Positions 5,384 to 63,450 of a DNA stretch of 64,000 bases are shown here, piece after piece. The stretch is from contig NC_030381.2 in assembly GCF_001625215.2 (NCBI RefSeq), positions 49,003,214 through 49,067,213 of the forward strand, in the 5' to 3' direction. The DNA is from Daucus carota subsp. sativus (taxonomy: Eukaryota; Streptophyta; Magnoliopsida; Apiales; Apiaceae). The first letter of the stretch is position 1; every line of letters starts with the position of its first letter. A program made the position numbers and the translations under genes. The notes under the pieces were generated by a model that searched no databases, was not told the origin of the DNA, and saw nothing but the letters and a program-made list of their open reading frames with translations.

Positions 5384-8300
5384 TTTTACTTTGTGTCACA
5401 CTGTAATTGGTGGTATCAAAGTTGGTGCTTTAGATTGAGATTAAATTTTTTATTATGAACTGAGAATTTGAGCTTTAGCATTAATATTAATCTGTGCAAA
5501 TTGAAAGTGTCTCACTTCTAGTAAATTTTATGAATCAATTGTTGGTTTGCTTGCCTAATTGTAATTGTGAAGCAGTTTGCTTGTTTGAATGGAATGATAT
5601 TTGGCACATCGTATCCTTGCTGCAAGTAAACATGTCTTCGGGTTTGTGGAAATTTAGAATAGTTTTAATTATTTTGTTATGTGTTAGCGTTTATCTTGAG
5701 GAATTTATCCCATATTTTTTGTGTATGTGTGTTTCTAGTTGTTTATAAACATATTTTAAGCTGTTGGCAGCTGTCTTGTAAATCATCTATTTTCTTTGAC
5801 TTCCGAGTTTTACCTGACTTTAATGAAAACTTGCTTGTTTTATGATTTTAATCATTTATCATCCAGTATCGTTTTCAGGTTGTTTTACTTGTAGTTTTAT
5901 TGAAAATGGTTTTCCTCTGTAATGTTAATCCTTACTAGCACTTAAGAAGCATGATGATAGCACTAAGGCAACTCGTCTAGTCTCTACTTGTTGGTTTAAT
6001 TGTGTGTTGATGTAGAGTCAGCCATGGGATTATTTGAAGGGATAATTTGTGGTTTAAATGATTAAAATTATAAACAGGGAAAGGATTATAGTACTTGCAA
6101 ATAAGCATACCCTTGTTTGTGTTCTCGAAGGGGTTTGTATAGTTGATTCTTTGTCTTTAAAACTCTGTTCTACTTTTCTGTTTTATCTTTTTTACCTGTT
6201 ATGAAGAACTGTTTCCTTGCTTAATGTTCCTCTCTGTGTCAGTACTGGTCTTTATATGTTGCTGGTTTTAAGGATGTTTTGTTCTAGAGAATCATAAATC
6301 AATAGAACTCCGAAAGAGCAGGTCATACTTTAGGATGGGGGCAGGGGCTCTGATATTCTGTGTGTAATCTGCCTATCTGTGACGTCATTTTTTGGTACCA
6401 ATTACAAAAGAGTCAGTTTCAGTGGCAATTGTTTGTAAATACTACCCTGGTATTGTTATGTAGTGGGTTGTCTAGTGTTTGCGGTTGTATAATTATCCAC
6501 TTCAATCTAGCCAGTTACGATTTTAATTCCATCTGTTTCACTTGATAATTCCATCTGTTTCACTTGATCAGTTAGCTGGTTAGAGTATTTGAAATACTTG
6601 GTAAATTACAACTTTGCTTGTCATTTTTTTTATGCTCATGTTCAAATTGTGTGATTACACGATTCTATTGGACAGCTCTTTATTTTGACAATCTTTTTGA
6701 TACATCTTTTAAGTATTTTATCCGGTATTGTTTTGTAGATCTTTGCAGCTCGTAATTGGGAGGGTCTTTGCTTGATGCACTTGCACTAATGGAGGAAGCT
6801 TGATGAGGATGGTGTTTAGTAGCATCGAGCCTAGGAAGTCGAGTAGGTTGTTTAGTTTTCGTATATTATAATACATTTTAGTAGTGATTGCTGTTCAAAA
6901 TTAAAGTATATTTAACTGCGGTGACTCCATTTGGGAGAGTAGAGAAGTCCTTGATTTTAACAGCAAATTATGCACACCGCTGACCAGAGAGTTTTGCGGT
7001 TTAATTTCTTAGATTATACAAATGACTTATCTGTTGAACTACATGTTACTTTCTTTGCATCAAATTATAATTTAACTGCTGTGCTCTGTCAGTTTTAATA
7101 ATGATGCATCTCTGTTTTTCGTTAGTAGGAAATAATTCTGCATTTTTTTTATTTACAAATATGGAAAACTGGATTATGAAAATTTTGCTTTCTTGATGTT
7201 GTCAATGGAGTTGCTCGTTGTTAAACTTTTAAAAAATTGCATTAAAACCAAATACACCAAATGTTTTGCTTTCTTGAGGGTGTTCTGAACTTCTGATTGT
7301 ATTGTTGTTTCCATGAAACTTGCCTTAAAGTGGATAAATATTACTATTGTTATTTTTTACATGGTATGTAAATTGTATGCATATATGTACATTTTGTGTG
7401 AAACCTTAGGAAGTGGATATTTAACTATCATGAAATGAATATTTACCTTGTATTAGAGGAATTTCCTAAAAAACAATTTGAGCAACTCCACTGCGCTCAT
7501 CTTTATCCTGTTTTTGGTAAAATTGTGAGCTAGATAAGTAGATAGCTAGGATCTCTGTCTAACCGTCTTAGCTGGCTTGAAAATCTTACTCAGATCTGCT
7601 GTTTTTGAATATCCTGTATTTAGAGCTGATCTGATGTATAAGATCCACTGTTTAAGTAGACTGATATTAGCATGCACATAGTTTAGAAAATTGTCTAAAG
7701 TGAAATGCTGAGTTTACAATATTTGTGTAACCTGAGCTTACCAAGTGAGGGAAGCCACCTGTTCTATTGATCCGGTGTTTATGTTATTTGCAGCATATGT
7801 TGTAGCTTCCTGTGTTCTGGGAAATGCGGTGGCTTTTTCAATGTCACGCCATATCCAAAACCCAACATACATAGTGATGATGTTATGCTTCTTGTATTTT
7901 CGTAATTGCTTCTTTGTTACTAGTTTCTCTATTCTGCAAATGTCTAGGTGTTATAGATTTTTAAATATACTTGTGAAATGGATCTGGATGACTTTAATCT
8001 AGAGTCAACCTTTCCATGCTTATTATCCGGGGAGAAAAAATATACTTGGTTTATATATTGATATGAGATGCCTGCAATCTCTTTCCTCAGTCACAAGTCA
8101 GTAGTCACTTTATCCTGCTCCCCGTCAAGATTTTAGATAGAAATTATGTTTGCCCGGAATGTACTAAGATTGTGTTCGGAACATGTATTTTATATGAAAT
8201 GTTGAATTTTAAATTACATGATTTGAATTGTCATTTTAAATTCTCAAGTTTATACTAGTATTTGAGTGTTTTGGAGGATTCTCATTTGAAATCCCGATCA

Positions 8301-34450: not shown

Positions 34451-35027
34451 CTAGCCTTTAACCCGTGCGAAGCACGGGCGGGTATATATAGTTCGTAATT
34501 TATTATTTATAATTTAATTTTAACATCATTTTATTAGTATTTTAGTATTAACGGATTGAATTTTAATTAAATTATATTATTCAACTGACTATATTTTCAC
34601 CCGATTACTTGAAAATGGACAAACCCTAATACACACACAGTATTTTAGTACATTTAATCCGAATTTAGTAACGTAGATTTAAATATAAAAAAAATCAGAA
34701 AATTTAAATCTTTTCCGAACATAACCGTCGTGTAATACCTTTGAAAGATTTAGTAAATTAGTCGAATTTCAACATAATTTTGTAATTTTGGTTTTTTGAC
34801 AACAATAACTTTTAAGATTAGAGTTGGAAAGGGTTATATAATGGTTCGTGTTTATATTGAGATAAAACACGTTAAAGTTATAAAGAGTTATACGAAGGTT
34901 CTTATTAAAAGAAGATATTTAAAATTGTATATTTATAATTTTATTTATAACATCATTATAATTTTTTTAATAAAACATTATATGATAATGGATTGTTATG
35001 AGTGTTTTTAGGATTTGAAACTGTTTA
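34451..35027 (-). mobile_element. Short non-autonomous Helitron, 3' terminus clear, 5' end tentative
   Basis: On the minus strand the element ends with a perfect 7-bp hairpin (CCCGTGC/GCACGGG around three bases, 34462-34478), then TTAAAGG and CTAG, followed by a T outside: the standard Helitron 3' structure. The homologous spacer in unit 2 (46250-46320) lacks this whole segment, consistent with insertion after duplication. The other end is placed near 35027 (minus strand TCTATTAGTATTATATTG), but the expected A/T context is not perfect there. Confidence 0.6.
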
Positions 35028-36420: not shown

Positions 36421-36481
36421 ATTGTAGACTACACAAATTATTACTACTAAGCTTAGTGAGTCTGGTTAAGTACACTGTGCT

Positions 36482-37657
36482 ATGGCTTCTCAATATGCCT
36501 TGTGCATGGCTCTTTTCTTGTTGATCATGGGAATTCTGCTGCCCTCCGAGGTTTCCTCGTCTCGGTCCGGACCGCACCTCGGAAAAACCATGTTCGAAAG
36601 GCATCAAGAATGGATGCTTCAGCACGCTCGGGTGTACAAAGATGCCATGGAGAAAGAGGCGAGGTTCAAGATTTTTAAGGAAAATGTGGAGCGTATCAAA
36701 GCTTTTAATAGCGATCCAAATAGAGGATTTAAACTAGCTGTTAATCACTTTGCCGATTTAACCGATGAGGAGTTTCGAGTTATTCATGCCAGTGGTTACA
36801 ACAGAAGCATGATAAGGACAGCGCCGTTCTCGGGTTCCTCAGTAAGGCCGGAATTTAACTATGGACGCCGTAATAATTTTAAGTATGCAAATGTACAGGG
36901 GGTTCCGCCTAGTGTGGACTGGCGAGACAAAGGGGCAGTCACGCCTGTCAAGAATCAAGGATCATGTGGTAAGTGTTTCGGGTTTTGTTAATTATTTTCC
37001 TATCGTGTCCTGTTTCAGAGTGGGACATATCGAGTATGTTTATAACTGGTTTTTAATTGTGAATGTTTGTGAATAGGTGACTGCTATGCATTTGCATCTA
37101 TTGCTGCTGTAGAAGGTCTTAATGCAATTGCAACTGGACAACTAGTCTCATTATCTGAACAAGAGATACTGGACTGTGACCAATCAAACAACCACTGCAA
37201 TGGTGGTGCCATGGAGAACACTTACGACTTCATTGGGGAAAATGGTGTCACCACCGAATCAGAGTATCCGTACAGAGAACAACAAGGCTACTGCAAAAAT
37301 GCTGCGTCAAATCCAGCTGTTCAGATCGGTGGATACGAAGATGTTCCTAGAAACAGCGAAACTCAAATGCTTTTAGCTGTGGCGAATCAGCCCATTTCAG
37401 TTGCTGTCGCTGGTGGTGATTATTACTTCAGATATTACAACAGTGGTATTATGGATATGGAATGCAGCACGGGCACTGATCACGCGGTTGCAGTTGTGGG
37501 CTATGGTGCGACAGATGACGGACGTAAGTATTGGATTGCCAAGAACTCCTGGGGCACAAACTGGGGAGAAAATGGATATATCTACCTAGCCAGAGATGTT
37601 GGAGATCCTCAAGGCCTCTGTGGCATTGCCACTAATCCGGCGTACCCTACTATGTGA
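36482..37657 (+). CDS. Papain-like cysteine protease (C1A, SAG39-type), copy A
   Basis: Exons 36482-36968 and 37077-37657 (phase 1, donor G/GTAAGT, acceptor GTGAATAG) encode 355 residues. Order: signal peptide (~1-26, hydrophobic [15 protein letters not shown]), I29 inhibitory propeptide with the ERFNIN pattern ([20 protein letters not shown]) and [11 protein letters not shown], then the mature enzyme from about PPSVDWR. Oxyanion Gln is in NQGSCG, catalytic Cys165, His298 ([11 protein letters not shown]) and Asn319 (KNSWG). Length and intron position fit SAG39-like vacuolar/secreted proteases linked to senescence. Odd point: the Cys is followed by Tyr (GDCYAF), where the family nearly always has GSCWAF. 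No C-terminal granulin domain or ER-retention tail. Secretion and acidic-compartment activity are inferred from the family. Confidence 0.93.
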
Positions 37658-46541: not shown

Positions 46542-47825
<1,284 letters not shown>

Positions 47826-47830
47826 AAGAG

Positions 47831-48299
47831 CTGGAACAATATGTTATCCTCGTCATGATTATTCTAGACTAATGTCTTATAAGAAGCTTTTCAGTTGTAG
47901 CTAGCAGTATAGGCTTAATTGGCTTATTAGTTAATAAGTAGGTGCTCATTTGCTTAGTGTTCTTTCGCGTTAAGTTTTGATGATTTGTTTAGTTTGAAGA
48001 AATTAGATATCAGGGAATTGGCAAGAACTGTGTATAAAATAAGTTCTGTTTATGTTTATATTTCATGCTTATAACTAGCTGGATCCAAGGCATTCTGCAA
48101 ATCACACAAAGCAACAAAGAGTGCTCAATCTAGAAACATGAGGGCTGCAGGTTACAGTACACATATATTTATGTCAGTCTAGCAAACGTAGAAGTAATTA
48201 ATTATGTTTAAAAATTAATGAAGTATTAAATTTAAGCTAAAACAGATTACTCTCTGTCTTTACCTATAAATTGAACCTTTTAAATTTGTATTTGCAGAC
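47831..48299. other. Spacer between protease B and the third protease copy
   Basis: No gene. TACCTATAAATTG at 48261-48273 is a TATA-like box ~30 bases before the start codon of the third copy. Confidence 0.5.
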
Positions 48300-49409
48300 A
48301 TGGCTTCTCCTAGTGCCATGTTTATTATTATAATTTTTGTGATCTTGGGGTTAAACAATTTATCCTATCAAACTTCCTCTCAGACTATTCCTTATGAAGA
48401 TATTGTGAGAATTTTCGACAACTGGATGTTCAAATATGCCCGCGTTTACAAAGATTTAGCAGAGAAGGAGATGAGGTTTACAATTTTCAAGGAAAATGCA
48501 GAACTTGTAGAGGCTTTTAGTAGAGGGGGAAATAAAGGATTTAATTTAACTCTAAACAATTTCGCAGATTTAACAGATGAAGAATTTCAAGATTTTTATA
48601 CTGGTTACAGTAAAAGCTCGAAAGCTTACTCCCCCGGGATGTCCATGGCCAAGAACGACACCTTTTTCAAGTATGCAAATTTAGAATCCGTTCCAAGTAG
48701 CATTGACTGGCGAAAAAAAGGGGCGGTCACTCCCGTGAAAGACCAGGGACAGTGTGGTCAGTTACATTCTTGCTTTGACAATTCTATTTTTTTAATAATT
48801 TTGTGACTAATTTTTGGTGTTATAGGCAGCTGCTATGCATTTTCAGCAGTTGCAGCTGTGGAAGGCATTGCATATATTACCCGAGGGAAGCTCGTATCGT
48901 TGTCTGAGCAAGAAATTGTAGACTGTGACCATGATGACCATGGTTGCAACAAGGGTAGCATGCAGAATGTATTTAGTTTCATATAAAAGAATGGTATCAC
49001 CGCGGAATCAGACTATTCTTACACTAGCGAACAAGGCACGTGCCAAAACAGCGATGTCAATCATGCAGCTGTTAGAATAAATGGATATCAAAATGTGCCC
49101 CAAAATAGTGAAGCTGATTTGTTGAAAGCGGTGGCAAATCAACCTGTTTCAGTTGCTGTTGATAGTAGGGATTACCGGTTCAGATTTTACTCCAGCGGTG
49201 TGTTCAATGCAGGGTGTGGCACACAATGTGACCATGCGCTTACAATTGTTGGCTATGGTGCAAATGGTAACGGAGTCAAGTATTGGATTGTGAAGAATTC
49301 GTGGGGAACGGGATGGGGTGAGGGAGGATATGGATACTTCATTCGAGATGTTGCTGATCCTCGAGGCATTTGTGGTATTGCCACAGATGCATCGTTTCCT
49401 ACCATCTAA
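48300..49409 (+). pseudogene. Papain-like cysteine protease, copy C, interrupted by one in-frame stop
   Basis: Exons 48300-48756 and 48826-49409 align end to end with the other two copies and keep the splice sites and frame over 347 codons including the end. A TAA at 48984-48986 (codon 206) stops the frame in the segment FI-stop-KNGITAESDY, where copies A and B have R or G. The catalytic Cys155 (GSCYAF) is upstream; His (CDHALTIVGYG) and Asn (KNSWG) are downstream, so the product would be a dead 205-residue fragment. ERFNIN is slightly altered (the last I and N are V and S). This copy is more diverged than A and B are from each other, so it is an older paralogue. It is either a young pseudogene or one miscalled base. 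Confidence 0.9.
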
Positions 49410-56578: not shown

Positions 56579-58289
56579 TAAATAAAGAATTTGTTGTTAA
56601 AATAATCGTTAAATTATAAAGTTCTTTTTAATATATAAAAACCTTTTCTTAATACTATGATGGTTATTATTATTAAAATAAAAAATTGTCCTATTAAATA
56701 TAAAAGTTTTTTTATAGTAATATAATAATAAAGCTTTTTAGCTTATTTTTTTATTTAAATAATTTTGTTTATTTCATGTTCTCATATCTGCACAAAAACT
56801 CTGTTGTCTCCTTATATTTATCTTATTAAAATTTTATAGAGTTAATTTATAAATTAAATTGTTTCAATTTTAAAAATCAAAATATTTAATTCCATTAGCA
56901 TGTTATTATGTTTCATGATTAATCATTATATTATAAAGTTCTAATATGTATATATGTCTTTTAAGTAATAAATAATAATAGAATAATAGAATATTTAAGC
57001 TTATTTTTATGTAAAAAAAATTTTATTTTATATTCTCATATCCACACAAATGCTCTGCTCGAACGTTATATTCATTTGATAGAATTTTATAGAGTTAATT
57101 CGCAAGTTAAATTATTTCAATTTTGAATAAAAAACATTTAGTTCTGTTGGGATACAAATATCTTTCATGAATAATCGCTGTGTTATAAAGTCAAGACCAA
57201 TATATATGTCTAGTAGAATGATGATGATAATAATTAAATATAAAAGTAATCACCAAATGTTGGTACTTTGAGATATGTTACTTTGATATTTGGTACTTCT
57301 AATTTCACCGAAATTGAATCTTGCTTATTGATAAAAGATATTGATTGTTTTTGGATATCCATATCATAAAAGATATTATAAAAGATCAAAAGTACTTTGA
57401 TACTTTCGCATATGATACTTTGACAGTTAGTAATTTTGATATTCCACCAAAATGGAGTTTGGCTTATTAATAAATAACTAGGGAATTATGCCCGCGCTAC
57501 GCGAGCTCCCTTTACAGAATATTAAAATTTATACATCTTATGTTTTATTATGAAAAAAAAAAGGAGTTTTATGTATATTAATAATATTTTTTGAAAAATA
57601 TCTGAATCATTCGGAGATACTTATAGCTTACTTTGGAAAATAAATGAATCATGCAAAGATACTTATAGCTTTCTTTTGAAAATTAACAGCAGCATGATTA
57701 GTATACATGACTCGTCACATTTACTGTGTGCACCCCGAAAAAAATAGCGCTCTATAAAAAATTTGTCGATAATTTTTATAAAAAAAAATACCATATAATC
57801 AAAGTATATCTCTGATCTTATGAACCAACAAAAAGAATGGTTTATATTTTAGTGCAATAAATTAACTTGTCAATTCTATATATTACGAATATCTTAACAA
57901 AAAATTGTACAAAACATAGTAGCTTAAATATGAATTGTTTTATAGTATTTTAGTCCCTGCTTACACAATCCTGGCTATGTTACATGCACATCAATTATGC
58001 TTGATGGTTAAACGTAAATGGCCTTTAGACAATTCACCCCACTGTGTGATGAAATAAGGTTCACATTTGCCTCATTGATTTTTGTTGTACAGGTCCGGGA
58101 GCAACTTACTATACTGAATGCAGAGAGTTTCTTTGTCTTGAACCCCAAGTAAAACTTGGTTGTAGCTAATTCATCACATTCTTCTGTGCATAAGAAAAGC
58201 CCAGATAAAGGAGGAGATGAAATGTGCTGCAAATTCACCATATTCTGCTTCATTGCCCCCCCATTGCATCTGGAAATTCAAATTGATTA

Positions 58290-58592
58290 TCAGTAGGCTG
58301 CAGATGGGTCATTTGACACTTGTCGTTGCGACTGCAGCATGGAGGGCACATTTGATGGGATAAGTGATTGGTCCAGCTGCATAGGAGGAATAGGCTTCTG
58401 AGGCCTATTCGAGTTAATAATTTGCTTTTCATAAGAGTCTAATTTATCCTTGTATCCCATCTGTATATTGCTCTTCGAAATTTGTACGAATGATAGAAAA
58501 CGCTCAAGCACATTTTTAAAAGATTTAAGCTCCTCAAGTTGTGGGTTGTTCCCTTGCTGTGACTGTGGCTGTTGTAGTAGAAGAGACTCGTG
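58290..58592 (-). pseudogene. MED15 (Mediator tail subunit)-like exon fragment captured by the Helitron
   Basis: After an acceptor (TTACTACAG at 58593-58601) 100 codons are open to a TGA. The peptide is Gln-rich (LLLQQPQSQQG), then QLEELKSFKNVLERFLSFVQ, ISKSNIQMGYKDKLDSYEKQ, INSNRPQKPIPP, and a Gln/Met/Ser tail. Plant MED15a proteins have just this order (LERxxxFLxVSKSNI..KEKLxSYEKQI..NxNRPRKP) C-terminal of the KIX region. Full MED15 is well over 1000 residues and its KIX domain is not here, so this is a captured piece. The stop soon after the conserved block and a frame change downstream (~58250) fit a decayed or truncated fragment. Confidence 0.65.
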
Positions 58593-59344
58593 CTGTAGTA
58601 AGAAGTAAAAGATACATTTTTTAAGATCATGGTTATATCTAACTCAAAATGTTTGCTTATCAAGAAACTTGATTACATACATAGCTCACTGAAACATTAT
58701 TAACTTGGAAACCAACTCTTTATGGTAGTATTGAACTCAAATTTTAAATTATAAAATAAGCTCATAGAAATAAATGTCCATTTATAATTATCAGTTTCAA
58801 ATCTATAACCCCAAAAATAAAAACACATATCAACTTAAAAAATATTAGAAAGATTAATTTTATTATGTATAATTTTCTTTTAAAAAAGTAAAATTTTAAT
58901 TTTTTCCAAACATGTATTGGTCATTTTAATATTAACTTCCCGAACTTATAATCAATTCATACCCAATTTTTTAAAAATGATATTAACATATGAACTCATA
59001 TATAAAAAAAAATTATACCTGACAACTGTCTACATCAAAACTTTATCCGCTCAAAAAATAAACACGAAAATCATATCACACAAAATTATTTTGGGAAGAA
59101 TAATTATATCAAGTTCTTGTTAAATTTTTACTACGTATAAAAAAACATATTTGTTAATGTTATTCCCCAAAATTAATATAAATTAGTTTCTAGTTAGTTA
59201 TCCATATTAACTCCTAAATAAATTAAATAGAGACGAAATATCAATTAGACACATCTAAAAAGGTCTTTACATAAGGCACAACTTAAAAAGAGGAGCCTAA
59301 TAATTGTCCAAAAAAGCTAAAGCAAAACACTTCTCTCCCCTTGC

Positions 59345-59475
59345 ATGCATTCAAACAGCCGCGCTGCAGTAGAAGGGGCGGCAGATTTGTCCGAGGAAGA
59401 AAACGCCGATATGGAGTCCAGGCCTGAGATCACGACAAAAGGTAGTCTGTACACTATATTCCCTGTAATGCGTAT
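59345..59475 (-). other. GC-richer island, possible captured exon, strand uncertain
   Basis: Open on the minus strand (YRLPFVVISGLDSISAFSSS and on) after an acceptor-like GCATTACAG, and on the plus strand from an ATG (MHSNSRAAVEGAADLSEEEN) to a donor-like AAAG/GTAGTC. Composition is clearly coding-like against the surrounding AT-rich DNA, but I do not recognise either translation. Confidence 0.3.
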
Positions 59476-60258
59476 AACAACCAAGAAATAGTTACTTGTG
59501 TTTCAAAGGGGGATTAAACTCTGAACTGATTAAAATTACTTGAAGACTATACATGTGCTCCATCACCAACAATTGTGTAATGTATGAAAGATTAAATCAT
59601 ATGCCAAATTCTGATTTTGCATAGCATGCAGAAAAATAATAAACTTAAGTACGTGTGTAAGTCTCTTCCAGCGAAATTGGTAAACTTATGCATAGAATGC
59701 CTCATTAGTCTGTTTTAAGAAAAATACAATCATGATCATAGATTGTATGAATTTCAAATTATTAGTAAAATAATATATGATGTGCATTTTATGATAATCC
59801 AAAATTAAGTGAAAACTACCCTTGAAACAACCACTGACTTCTCGGAATGGTTTATATGCAAACAGATTTTGACAGGGATATATGCTCTGAACACCTCACT
59901 ACGCAACAACTTATAATTAACACTATAAAAAATAAGGGCTTTTATTAGAAACTGAGAAAAAATTCTTTTATTTAGGAAATTTAGTATGGTGAGATTCTTT
60001 TTTTCTTTTTAGTGAGGTGATCACCAAATTCCAAAACGGTGTACTAAGCAAACAACACATGGAATTAATCTCAAAAGAAAGAATCCAATATCCACCATCT
60101 TTTTATCTCTTTTTAAGGTATATTATAAATTAGCAGTTCTAACACTTTTAAGACGTCATTGTTCAGCCAACTTTGGTCGTGAAAGTAGAGTGCGGAGAGC
60201 TCAAATTTTATGTGAAAGATGTCAATTTAATTAAATCTTAATGATTTGCTAAACTAAC

Positions 60259-60362
60259 CTCTTTGATTTCGTTCCACATGTCCTTTGTTGCGATGCACGA
60301 AGAGTTTCCAGATATTATAAAGACAGGGCAGTCAGAGATATGTACATCTTCCGTCTCTTCAA
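60259..60362 (-). other. Open, splice-flanked segment in the Helitron
   Basis: Acceptor TAATTGCAG, 104 bases open in one frame ([20 protein letters not shown], then [14 protein letters not shown]), donor GAG/GTTAG. No family recognised. An overlapping plus-strand frame (60263-60481) also exists but lacks splice support. Confidence 0.35.
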
Positions 60363-61639
60363 CTGCAATTACAAAAGTTACTGGTGGTAGTCTATTTGCA
60401 GCTTCGAATCAGTTAGGAAAGAGATGTTCTCTAAGAAAGTATGTAACCATGATTGGGGATATAGTACTGACTTATGTATAGGACTACTAAGGTGACTGTA
60501 TAAATAATATGTTACCCTGTAATGGAACAATACATGTAGCCATGAAAGCTCACAAAAATGCTATAAGCCTGGAGGAGACTAAAATTATTTAACCTTTGAC
60601 ATATAATGAAAATTGTCTTTAGCGCAGGTGCTTATATATAAGTTGGCTTTAAACTCTTTGTGATTTTTGTACTATTTTGTAGATGATGAAGAGACTCATT
60701 GTTCTTTCCTAGGATTTTTATTAGTTACACACCTACTGAATTGATGTTAGAATAGAAACTCATGGCTGTAAAAATATACAGAGCTGCAATATGAAAATTA
60801 ATGATACCTGGGTGATAATGAACAAAACTCATTCCCAATTTGAATATCTTGCATCTTTTTGTAGCTTCTAGTCTTTAGTCTTTAGTAGGTACACATATAT
60901 ATAGGTGGGATTTCCTGTAAACAAAACACATAAAACAAAATTCACTGGAATTTCAAGTCTAGCATTATGTCCCAAAATAGTCTATCACTATTATATCACT
61001 AAATACAAATGTATTAAAGCTTAACACCACTTTTGCCAAAGTCTGTTAATAGGTCATTCTTTGTTGCACTGAAGTAAATTCTGATACTAAAAATCCACAA
61101 TCTTTATTTGCAACCTCAACTCTACGGTATAATATCCCTAAGGAATATATAGTAGCATTAATTTCATGAAAATTATCAGCCACTTTTTTTTTAATCGTGT
61201 AGGGAGCTTAAACTTCCGATACTTATTTATTTTAACAGGAAGTTCTTCACTAAAGTGTTTATTTATTTTAACATAAGATTTATTAACCTCACATCAGAAA
61301 AGATTACATCTTCCCACTGTTTAGCTATTACGTTCTTAAACATTTTATTACTATTGCCATATCACTAAATAAAGATGCATTAAAGCGTAACACCGCTAAA
61401 AAAAGATAATATCAAGAAAATGTTAATAGTTACTACTCTTCTCTGGAAAAATGTGTATAGAAAACACCAACACATGCATAATATAAATCTACATATATCA
61501 ATATTATACTATATACTGAGATTATCAAATATTAGATTTTAAATCAATAGGCAGCAAACAGTTGCGAAATAATGTTAAAACTTTAAAATAAAATAGCTTT
61601 CAATCAGAGGAATACCACCACTTTTTTGTGTATTCTTTT

Positions 61640-61934
61640 ATGATTCTGGCTACCACCATACCATCGCGGCCAGGGTGACAAACTTCGATCCGATTTCTGA
61701 AAGAAGAAACTGTAAAATATAAGCTACACACTGAAATTGGACGGTTGATACTTGAAAATTTTATGTCTTATAAATAAACTCTAAAAGTTATTCAAGAGAT
61801 GACCTAGAAGGAATAACCATTTTTTGTGTAATAAAGGCAATATTGCAAAATTTTTATAAAAGCAATCACCTCAAGTTGCTAGCCAGATTATTGTGCTTAT
61901 GCACTGGCAACAGAAGCAACCAATCGCGGAGCAC
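61640..61934 (-). other. Two adjacent splice-compatible open segments in the Helitron
   Basis: First segment 61870-61934: acceptor GTGTACAG, 65 bases (VLRDWLLLLPVHKHNNLASN), donor TTGAG/GTGATT. Second from 61696 downward: acceptor TCTTTCAG, then in the matching phase NRIEVCHPGRDGMVVARIIK and on to about 61640. Joined they stay open, which suggests they come from one gene. Not recognised. Confidence 0.4.
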
Positions 61935-62775
61935 CTGTACACCTTAGACAATTCTGGCCACTATCAATAAAGTTTGAAGAAGTCTATTATCGTTAATGTT
62001 TGAATAAGTCTGCGATGAGATGCAAGATTGTAGGATCAAAATGACAAACCTTCCGAGAAAATCTGTGATGAGATGCAAGATTGTAGGATCAAAAATGTAC
62101 TTGCTTTTCTATTCGAGTAAGGGTTGTTTCTAATGTGTGCACAACGCAGGACTATAGAGAATCTGGAAAAAAAAAAGATATAACAGTGAAACAGGACAAT
62201 TGTTATCTAAGTATGTAAAAGAATAAGAAGATACAAACAGAAGATATAATGCTATAATCCATCATAAAATTTGTAACACTTTACCATTTAGGAAAAAATT
62301 ATTTTCCGTCCACTTCTGGTCAGTAAGAAACAATTCGAAAGAAATCTCAATCACCAATCCAAGGATTATGATGTTAGTTGTGTTTAAAAAGGAAGGTTTC
62401 TAACTTGGTCCCTCCATTTTTTCTTCCCTGTTTATAGACTATGCATCGCTACAACATCCAAAGAAATCAAGATTATAAAGAATCATTATGATAAGAAGCT
62501 AGGTCTTAGATATATTAAAATAAATAAACAAATCATAAAGAGAAGAAAAAACCTGAAGGGAATCGACATGATACAACTATTTTCTTCCACGAATTGTAGC
62601 TATTGATTTAGTTCAAAACTATATATACATCCTTATGAAACAATGTAAAATAATATCAAGTGATATTAATTATAGATGAAAATGAATATCTACATACAGA
62701 ACTCAAATTGAGAGCAGAAGAGAAAAATTTAAAGTAAAATAAATGACTGAATTTAAAATACAGACAAACCAATAC

Positions 62776-63130
62776 CCTTATCTGACGACGAAGGAGAGTG
62801 GACACTTAGTGACACTGGCTTTTGACCTGAACATATATTTAAAAAAATGAAAAAGGTTGAGCAGGTGAAGTACTACACAATCATATCTACTTAACACCTA
62901 AGATGAGACTTGGAATGAAAAAGTATAAAAGTGTGAGAATATCTTACAAAATCAAACAAACCCACATAGAATCACAAATCAAACACCTTATATGCATCAA
63001 TCAAAAACTATCTGCAAGAAGTCAAATTCTCTTGAACCATATTGTAGCATTCAACACATCACAACATTGCAAGATGGATAATATGGGTGTGGAAAAACTT
63101 ACCATCTTTTATCGAAGGGAGAGACGGCAT
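62776..63130 (-). other. Possible first two exons of a gene carried by the Helitron
   Basis: Exon 63103-63130 runs ATG to donor G/GTAAGT (MPSLPSIKD); exon 62776-62826 has acceptor TATGTTCAG, continues in the matching phase (GQKPVSLSVHSPSSSDK) and ends at a donor-like G/GTATTG. A plausible leader with GC-richer sequence lies at 63140-63400, near the Helitron's 5' end. No family recognised; too short for certainty. Confidence 0.4.
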
Positions 63131-63450
63131 CTGAGAGTAATTCGTTTCCGACCTTTAAATCAAACTTGATGAAACACGAAGATAATACACACCGGCGACA
63201 CGGTTATGATTTTTGATATCACAGGTTGAAGCCCGTATGAATCCAAGAGGATGCCACATAATCCAAGAGGTTAATCCACATGATTGGAAATTTGAATTCA
63301 GAGGAAGAGAATTGAACGGCATAAATTAAGGAACAAACTGTGCTGGGCAGATGGGTTAACGGGTCTCGGGTGGATGGAGCAGGCAAATAAAACGGGCAAA
63401 ATTAGGATTATTTTTGGGGCCTTCACTAGCATGCATTAAGAATATATGGA

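Follow-up and report, generated by a model that had tools for sequence, protein, structure and literature searches.

An apparently non-autonomous, probably recently mobile carrot Helitron with captured host gene pieces

The 64,000-nt stretch of carrot (Daucus carota subsp. sativus) DNA analysed here, referred to as the window, corresponds to C1:49003214-49067213, where the labels C1-C11 denote contigs of the host genome that was searched (441,086,747 bases in 11 contigs); plain coordinates are positions in the window. On its minus strand, at 57478-63450, lies an element that begins with TC, ends with a hairpin and CTAG, encloses pieces of several host loci and has an exact second copy on the same chromosome. 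These features lead us to propose, with high confidence, that the element is an apparently non-autonomous member of a carrot Helitron family, that it has probably been mobile recently and that it carries captured pieces of host genes. A sequence-only reading of this DNA had already described a base-resolved Helitron with TC after A and a hairpin plus CTAG before T, a description that the termini and the exact second copy bear out.

Termini, exact twin and family

On the minus strand, the element closes with CTAG at 57478-57481, followed by a host T, and opens with TC at 63450-63449, preceded by a host A. The 3' end folds with -9.4 kcal/mol (z -3.1; two of 200 shuffles were equally good), and its 29 bases have a single occurrence in the window at up to three mismatches, with 0.00 expected. 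None of the 25 inverted pairs listed, out of 55, links the two ends of the element. Joined without the element, the flanks align to 57260-57384 (78% over 127 bases, E 1.2e-23), in agreement with the earlier proposal that they rejoin into a neighbouring repeat unit.

The second copy, at C1:48563787-48569759, lies 497 kb away and is identical to the window Helitron at 5,973 of 5,973 positions. Both copies are inserted between A and T, without duplication of the target. Identity ends at the Helitron termini, beyond which only three chance bases on one side and one on the other agree, and neither the 1,978 bases of window sequence on the left of the element nor the 550 bases on its right are matched around the twin. 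Because an exact twin with unmatched flanks exists, both borders of the window Helitron are fixed and recent movement, which we consider probable, is suggested. Substitutions accumulate in plants at 7e-9 per site and year; at this rate, zero differences between the twins place their parting roughly within the last 36,000 years (95% upper bound), unless gene conversion has kept the copies alike.

The two ends recur throughout the genome. A search with the terminal 223 bases of the 3' end (40 of 55 candidates scored, some matches being second pieces of one element) gave at least 42 matches, 36 of the 42 beginning at the terminal base, and a search with the terminal 300 bases of the 5' end gave at least 36, 28 of which do so; both counts are of matches listed and are thus lower bounds. 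The outcome that would have spoken against the sequence-only reading, a 3' end that does not recur in the genome, was not observed. From the matches that start at the terminal base, 20 3' ends and 20 5' ends were fetched, excluding the window element and its twin. A T follows CTAG in 20/20 of the former and an A precedes TC in 16/20 of the latter; CTAG itself (20/20) and TC itself (20/20) are expected, since the sample was chosen from matches starting at the terminal base. Matching the two end lists by hand, with consistent orientation and a distance of <11 kb, yields 14 elements with both ends, of 6 to 10.5 kb, window element and twin included, and the family apparently comprises some dozens of copies in carrot.

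Genome queries covered the element apart from 57701-57989, 60951-61549 and 62451-63150. The sibling at C6:22998605-23007211 is matched in blocks by the 5' 1.36 kb (62.1-63.45 kb) and also by ~450 bp at the 3' end (75-80% identity), and a locus at 16.47 Mb on C6 matches 57.67-58.61 kb in two blocks. The family member C7:40790303-40800816 (L038+L039) carries PPR and GH18 fragments, while other pieces at members or related loci include MTHFR near the C2 locus and a Myb-type piece in locus L027. The different subsets of blocks found in the siblings are consistent with pieces being acquired one step at a time or with siblings recombining with each other.

The sampled 5' ends show a further pattern. 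The motif TC[C/T]ATA, which represents the first six bases of the element, occurs within 12 bases upstream in ten of the 20 (L073-L092), sometimes repeated, compared with 120 of 14,493 sites between A and T in the window (0.8%), which is the sole background; the resulting binomial value of 2.7e-16 ignores the relatedness of copies and local repeats. Five 3' ends abut the 5' end of another copy that is without its first six bases, as if insertion had occurred between TCCATA and TATTC; this was seen by sequence for L066 and C6:30968182 and by position only for C6:31002572, C3:20683061 and C3:20704907, with one side of each insert viewed. Homing of the family to its own 5' tip is a tentative and rather doubtful explanation, against which stands the absence of the tip motif upstream of the window element and its twin. 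On this reading, new copies would choose sites between A and T that are preceded by a match to the tip, or rounds of transposition would leave six-base relics of the tip.

Captured pieces and coding capacity

The coordinates of the element, its termini and the pieces it encloses are collected in Table 1.

Table 1. Features of the carrot Helitron and its surroundings (positions in the window)
Feature	Position	Strand	Evidence
Complete, apparently non-autonomous Helitron, 5,973 bp	57478..63450	-	Exact second copy and family ends
5' terminal TC (5' end TCCATATATTCTTAATGCATGCTAG...)	63449..63450	-	Host A before TC
Family 5' terminal region	63268..63450	-	97-98% over 183 bases at C3:37546398, C7:40800634, C1:40969409
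Stretches common with sibling C6:22998605-23007211	62094..63261	-	62094-62204, 62575-63213, 63212-63261 at 95-100%
Multi-locus fragment	61293..62063	-	C2 92%/87%, C3 83%, C4 80%, weaker matches elsewhere
Hexokinase gene locus piece, presumably intron 1	60697..60832	-	88% to C3:34768950-34769081 (136 bp)
236-bp piece	60453..60688	-	94% to C5:34402090-34402325
53-bp match to C10	60443..60495	-	92%; C10 carries nad6
GH116 non-lysosomal glucosylceramidase exon with bits of both introns	60252..60444	-	PDB 9wiz, E 6.3e-13
Fragment	59827..60065	-	C1:44766677 (87%) and two further loci (81%)
Stretch with matches beside family 3' ends	58669..59124	-	C5:14213711 (77%), C6:30960110 (75%)
MED15-like exon fragment, frameshifted	58021..58607	-	82% to C2:52701376
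3' terminal hairpin and CTAG	57478..57506	-	Fold z -3.1; T after CTAG
Neighbouring repeat unit like an unoccupied target	57260..57384	.	Joined-flank alignment

The GH116 exon, assigned also to 60241-60408 and a donor identity that the sequence-only reading had not named, is 87% identical to the host locus C9:2611206-2611397. The piece itself matches Pfam GH116N only below the cut-off, and the adjoining host exon matches it at E 3.8e-13. Frame and splice donor are retained (46 codons; dN 0.10 and dS 0.26 against the host gene, giving a dN/dS of 0.38 from few sites). For the hexokinase piece, the first exon of the gene lies ~1 kb upstream of the matched C3 stretch on the same strand; motifs of a second hexokinase exon were not found in the fetched C3 locus.

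The C2 locus matched by the third traced piece has a reading frame that stays open for 472 codons. The MED15 label of the piece is a tentative assignment, Pfam naming no MED15 family for either the piece or the host gene, and a PDB search with the segment gave no match. Further matches lie on C1 (73%) and at C8:16518822, where the frame is broken, and C6:19647436 (both 80%). Compared with the C2 gene, the piece shows deletions of 9, 2, 20 and 13 bp, one-base insertions and stops (dN/dS 0.67, from few sites). It is 96% identical to C6:16472779, a probable sibling element, and the two have most lesions in common, the 20-bp gap measuring 22 bp in the C6 copy; the piece was broken before the element reached its present form. 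The MED15-like exon reported from the sequence alone is thus present as a match to host genes, but with a shifted, interrupted reading frame. All three pieces for which a host protein gene was identified (MED15-like, GH116 and hexokinase) are in the sense of the element, in line with the earlier statement that the fragments share its orientation; three of three would arise by chance one time in eight.

For the 53-bp piece, two places on C1 match as well as C10, and the C5 locus contains most of the same stretch. C10 is probably mitochondrial, judging by nad6, and the piece appears mitochondrial-like, with a direct source that is ambiguous among C10, the two C1 places and the C5 locus. An imperfect 36-base repeat occupies 62006-62094, where the multi-locus fragment has its edge. 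Pfam searches with ten single segments returned only the sub-cut-off GH116 match and weak chance matches, and a PDB search with the other two masked minus frames returned no match.

On neither strand does the element contain an open stretch that reaches 150 codons. A Pfam scan of its masked minus frames was empty; as evidence against an encoded RepHel protein this is weak, because the same scan also missed the GH116 exon. The element is, on this sequence evidence, apparently non-autonomous.

The alternative that fares best is an expressed chimeric gene, in which a promoter near 63.1-63.4 kb would drive a coding transcript that joins the captured exons by splicing. The sequence-only reading had suggested a chimeric transcript starting there, from a multi-exon chimera with two pairs of segments in phase. 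The shared sense of the three traced pieces and the intact frame and donor of the GH116 exon are compatible with it, as is the chimeric transcription of gene-capturing Helitrons in maize (PMC4528327). The two named joins are indeed open, 63103/62776 giving 73 codons and 61870/61696 giving 56, but among 5,000 random GT/AG pairs drawn within the element 80-600 bases apart, 796 (16%) and 1,775 (36%), respectively, reach as much, which places the kept phases at chance level. The first join requires an AAG acceptor, and use of the better CAG acceptor at 62782 leaves a longest joined frame of 43 codons; its donor at 63102 reads GTAAG in the element and GTAAA in the C6 sibling of Table 1. The frame of the second exists only through the lack of one base at 61870, a base that three of four aligned loci possess, the fourth being gapped there, and a PDB search with the 61.9/61.7-kb peptide found nothing credible. 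Substitutions relative to the C6 sibling (1/108 bases in the first segment, 6/325 in the intron and 0/37 in the second segment) are too few to show constraint. Because the MED15-like piece is broken and the joins are at chance level, a chimeric protein is unlikely, and we give the expressed coding chimera a small probability. If the element is transcribed at all, a non-coding RNA or a source of small RNAs is the likelier product.

Elsewhere in the window, the minus strand has at 34451 a second 3' end of Helitron type, distinct from that of the element, with a CCCGTGC stem and with CTAG in front of T. A 63-bp match at 26.7 kb, AT-rich and lacking an adjacent Helitron end, was set aside as apparently fortuitous. 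Repeated protease-type reading frames, which we take to be of the papain-like cysteine protease type, are found at 36470-37657, 46542-47825 and 48270-48806.

Origin of the element and relation to known Helitrons

A complete Helitron of a carrot family accounts for the exact twin, the recurrent ends and the mixed interior. Its movement would be rolling-circle transposition of the 'peel-and-paste' type, driven by a RepHel protein made elsewhere, and the 3' hairpin may act as the stop signal. The pieces may have been gathered stepwise in older family members, either through filler-DNA repair of breaks, a model of piece acquisition described in PMC6544945, or through recombination between siblings. 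Several points weigh against this account. The autonomous partner that would supply RepHel is putative; gene conversion could likewise keep the twins identical; four of the 20 sampled 5' ends have T rather than A before TC; and the junctions between pieces, viewed by eye only, show a 2 bp overlap at one and 8-bp gaps at two, which proves little.

That the twins arose by segmental or assembly duplication instead of transposition would agree with their complete identity and their proximity on one chromosome, but is very improbable given that identity stops at the termini, that neither window flank is matched at the twin and that many other copies terminate at the same bases. Least credible of all is a host gene region with chance Helitron-like ends, or a pair of adjoining truncated Helitrons: the big interior without transposon genes would suit it, but an exact copy exists elsewhere as a single unit and the pieces match different chromosomes.

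Gene capture by plant Helitrons is well documented (PMC13317346), and the carrot element appears to be one more example of a well-known kind. A literature search, in which titles and abstract openings were judged and most subscription journals lay outside the scope, returned no paper on this element. It resembles the maize gene-capturing Helitrons (PMC4528327) in starting with TC and ending with CTRR, in being inserted between A and T and in enclosing exons of different genes, but belongs to another host and another terminal sequence family and is known from sequence alone. With the rice Mothra Helitrons (PMC4683698) it shares apparent non-autonomy, TC and CTAG ends, a hairpin and captured gene sequence; Mothra has 1,682 copies with one fragment in the consensus, whereas the carrot members carry different fragments. 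Spodoptera Hel1 (PMC6544945), which acquired its pieces stepwise, offers a parallel in that its related copies differ in internal segments drawn from several loci, with junction repeats of 2-13 bp reported there.

In the same species, a Helitron insertion is described in DCAR_730022, the Y2 candidate gene for orange colour (PMC10581907). Presence of the present family in that gene is not supported: among the matches listed, the nearest family ends on C7 are at 36.92 and 40.35 Mb, and the best PF12014 match on C7, a putative DCAR_730022, is at C7:38992106. PF12014 is the domain that EXECUTER1 presumably carries.

The tip-motif pattern, if true over all copies, would inform on Helitron target choice. 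The candidate gene for orange colour likewise has a reported Helitron insertion (PMC10581907). Two identical gene-carrying Helitrons whose borders are known to the base offer a favourable entry point for observing how Helitrons move and capture genes in a crop.

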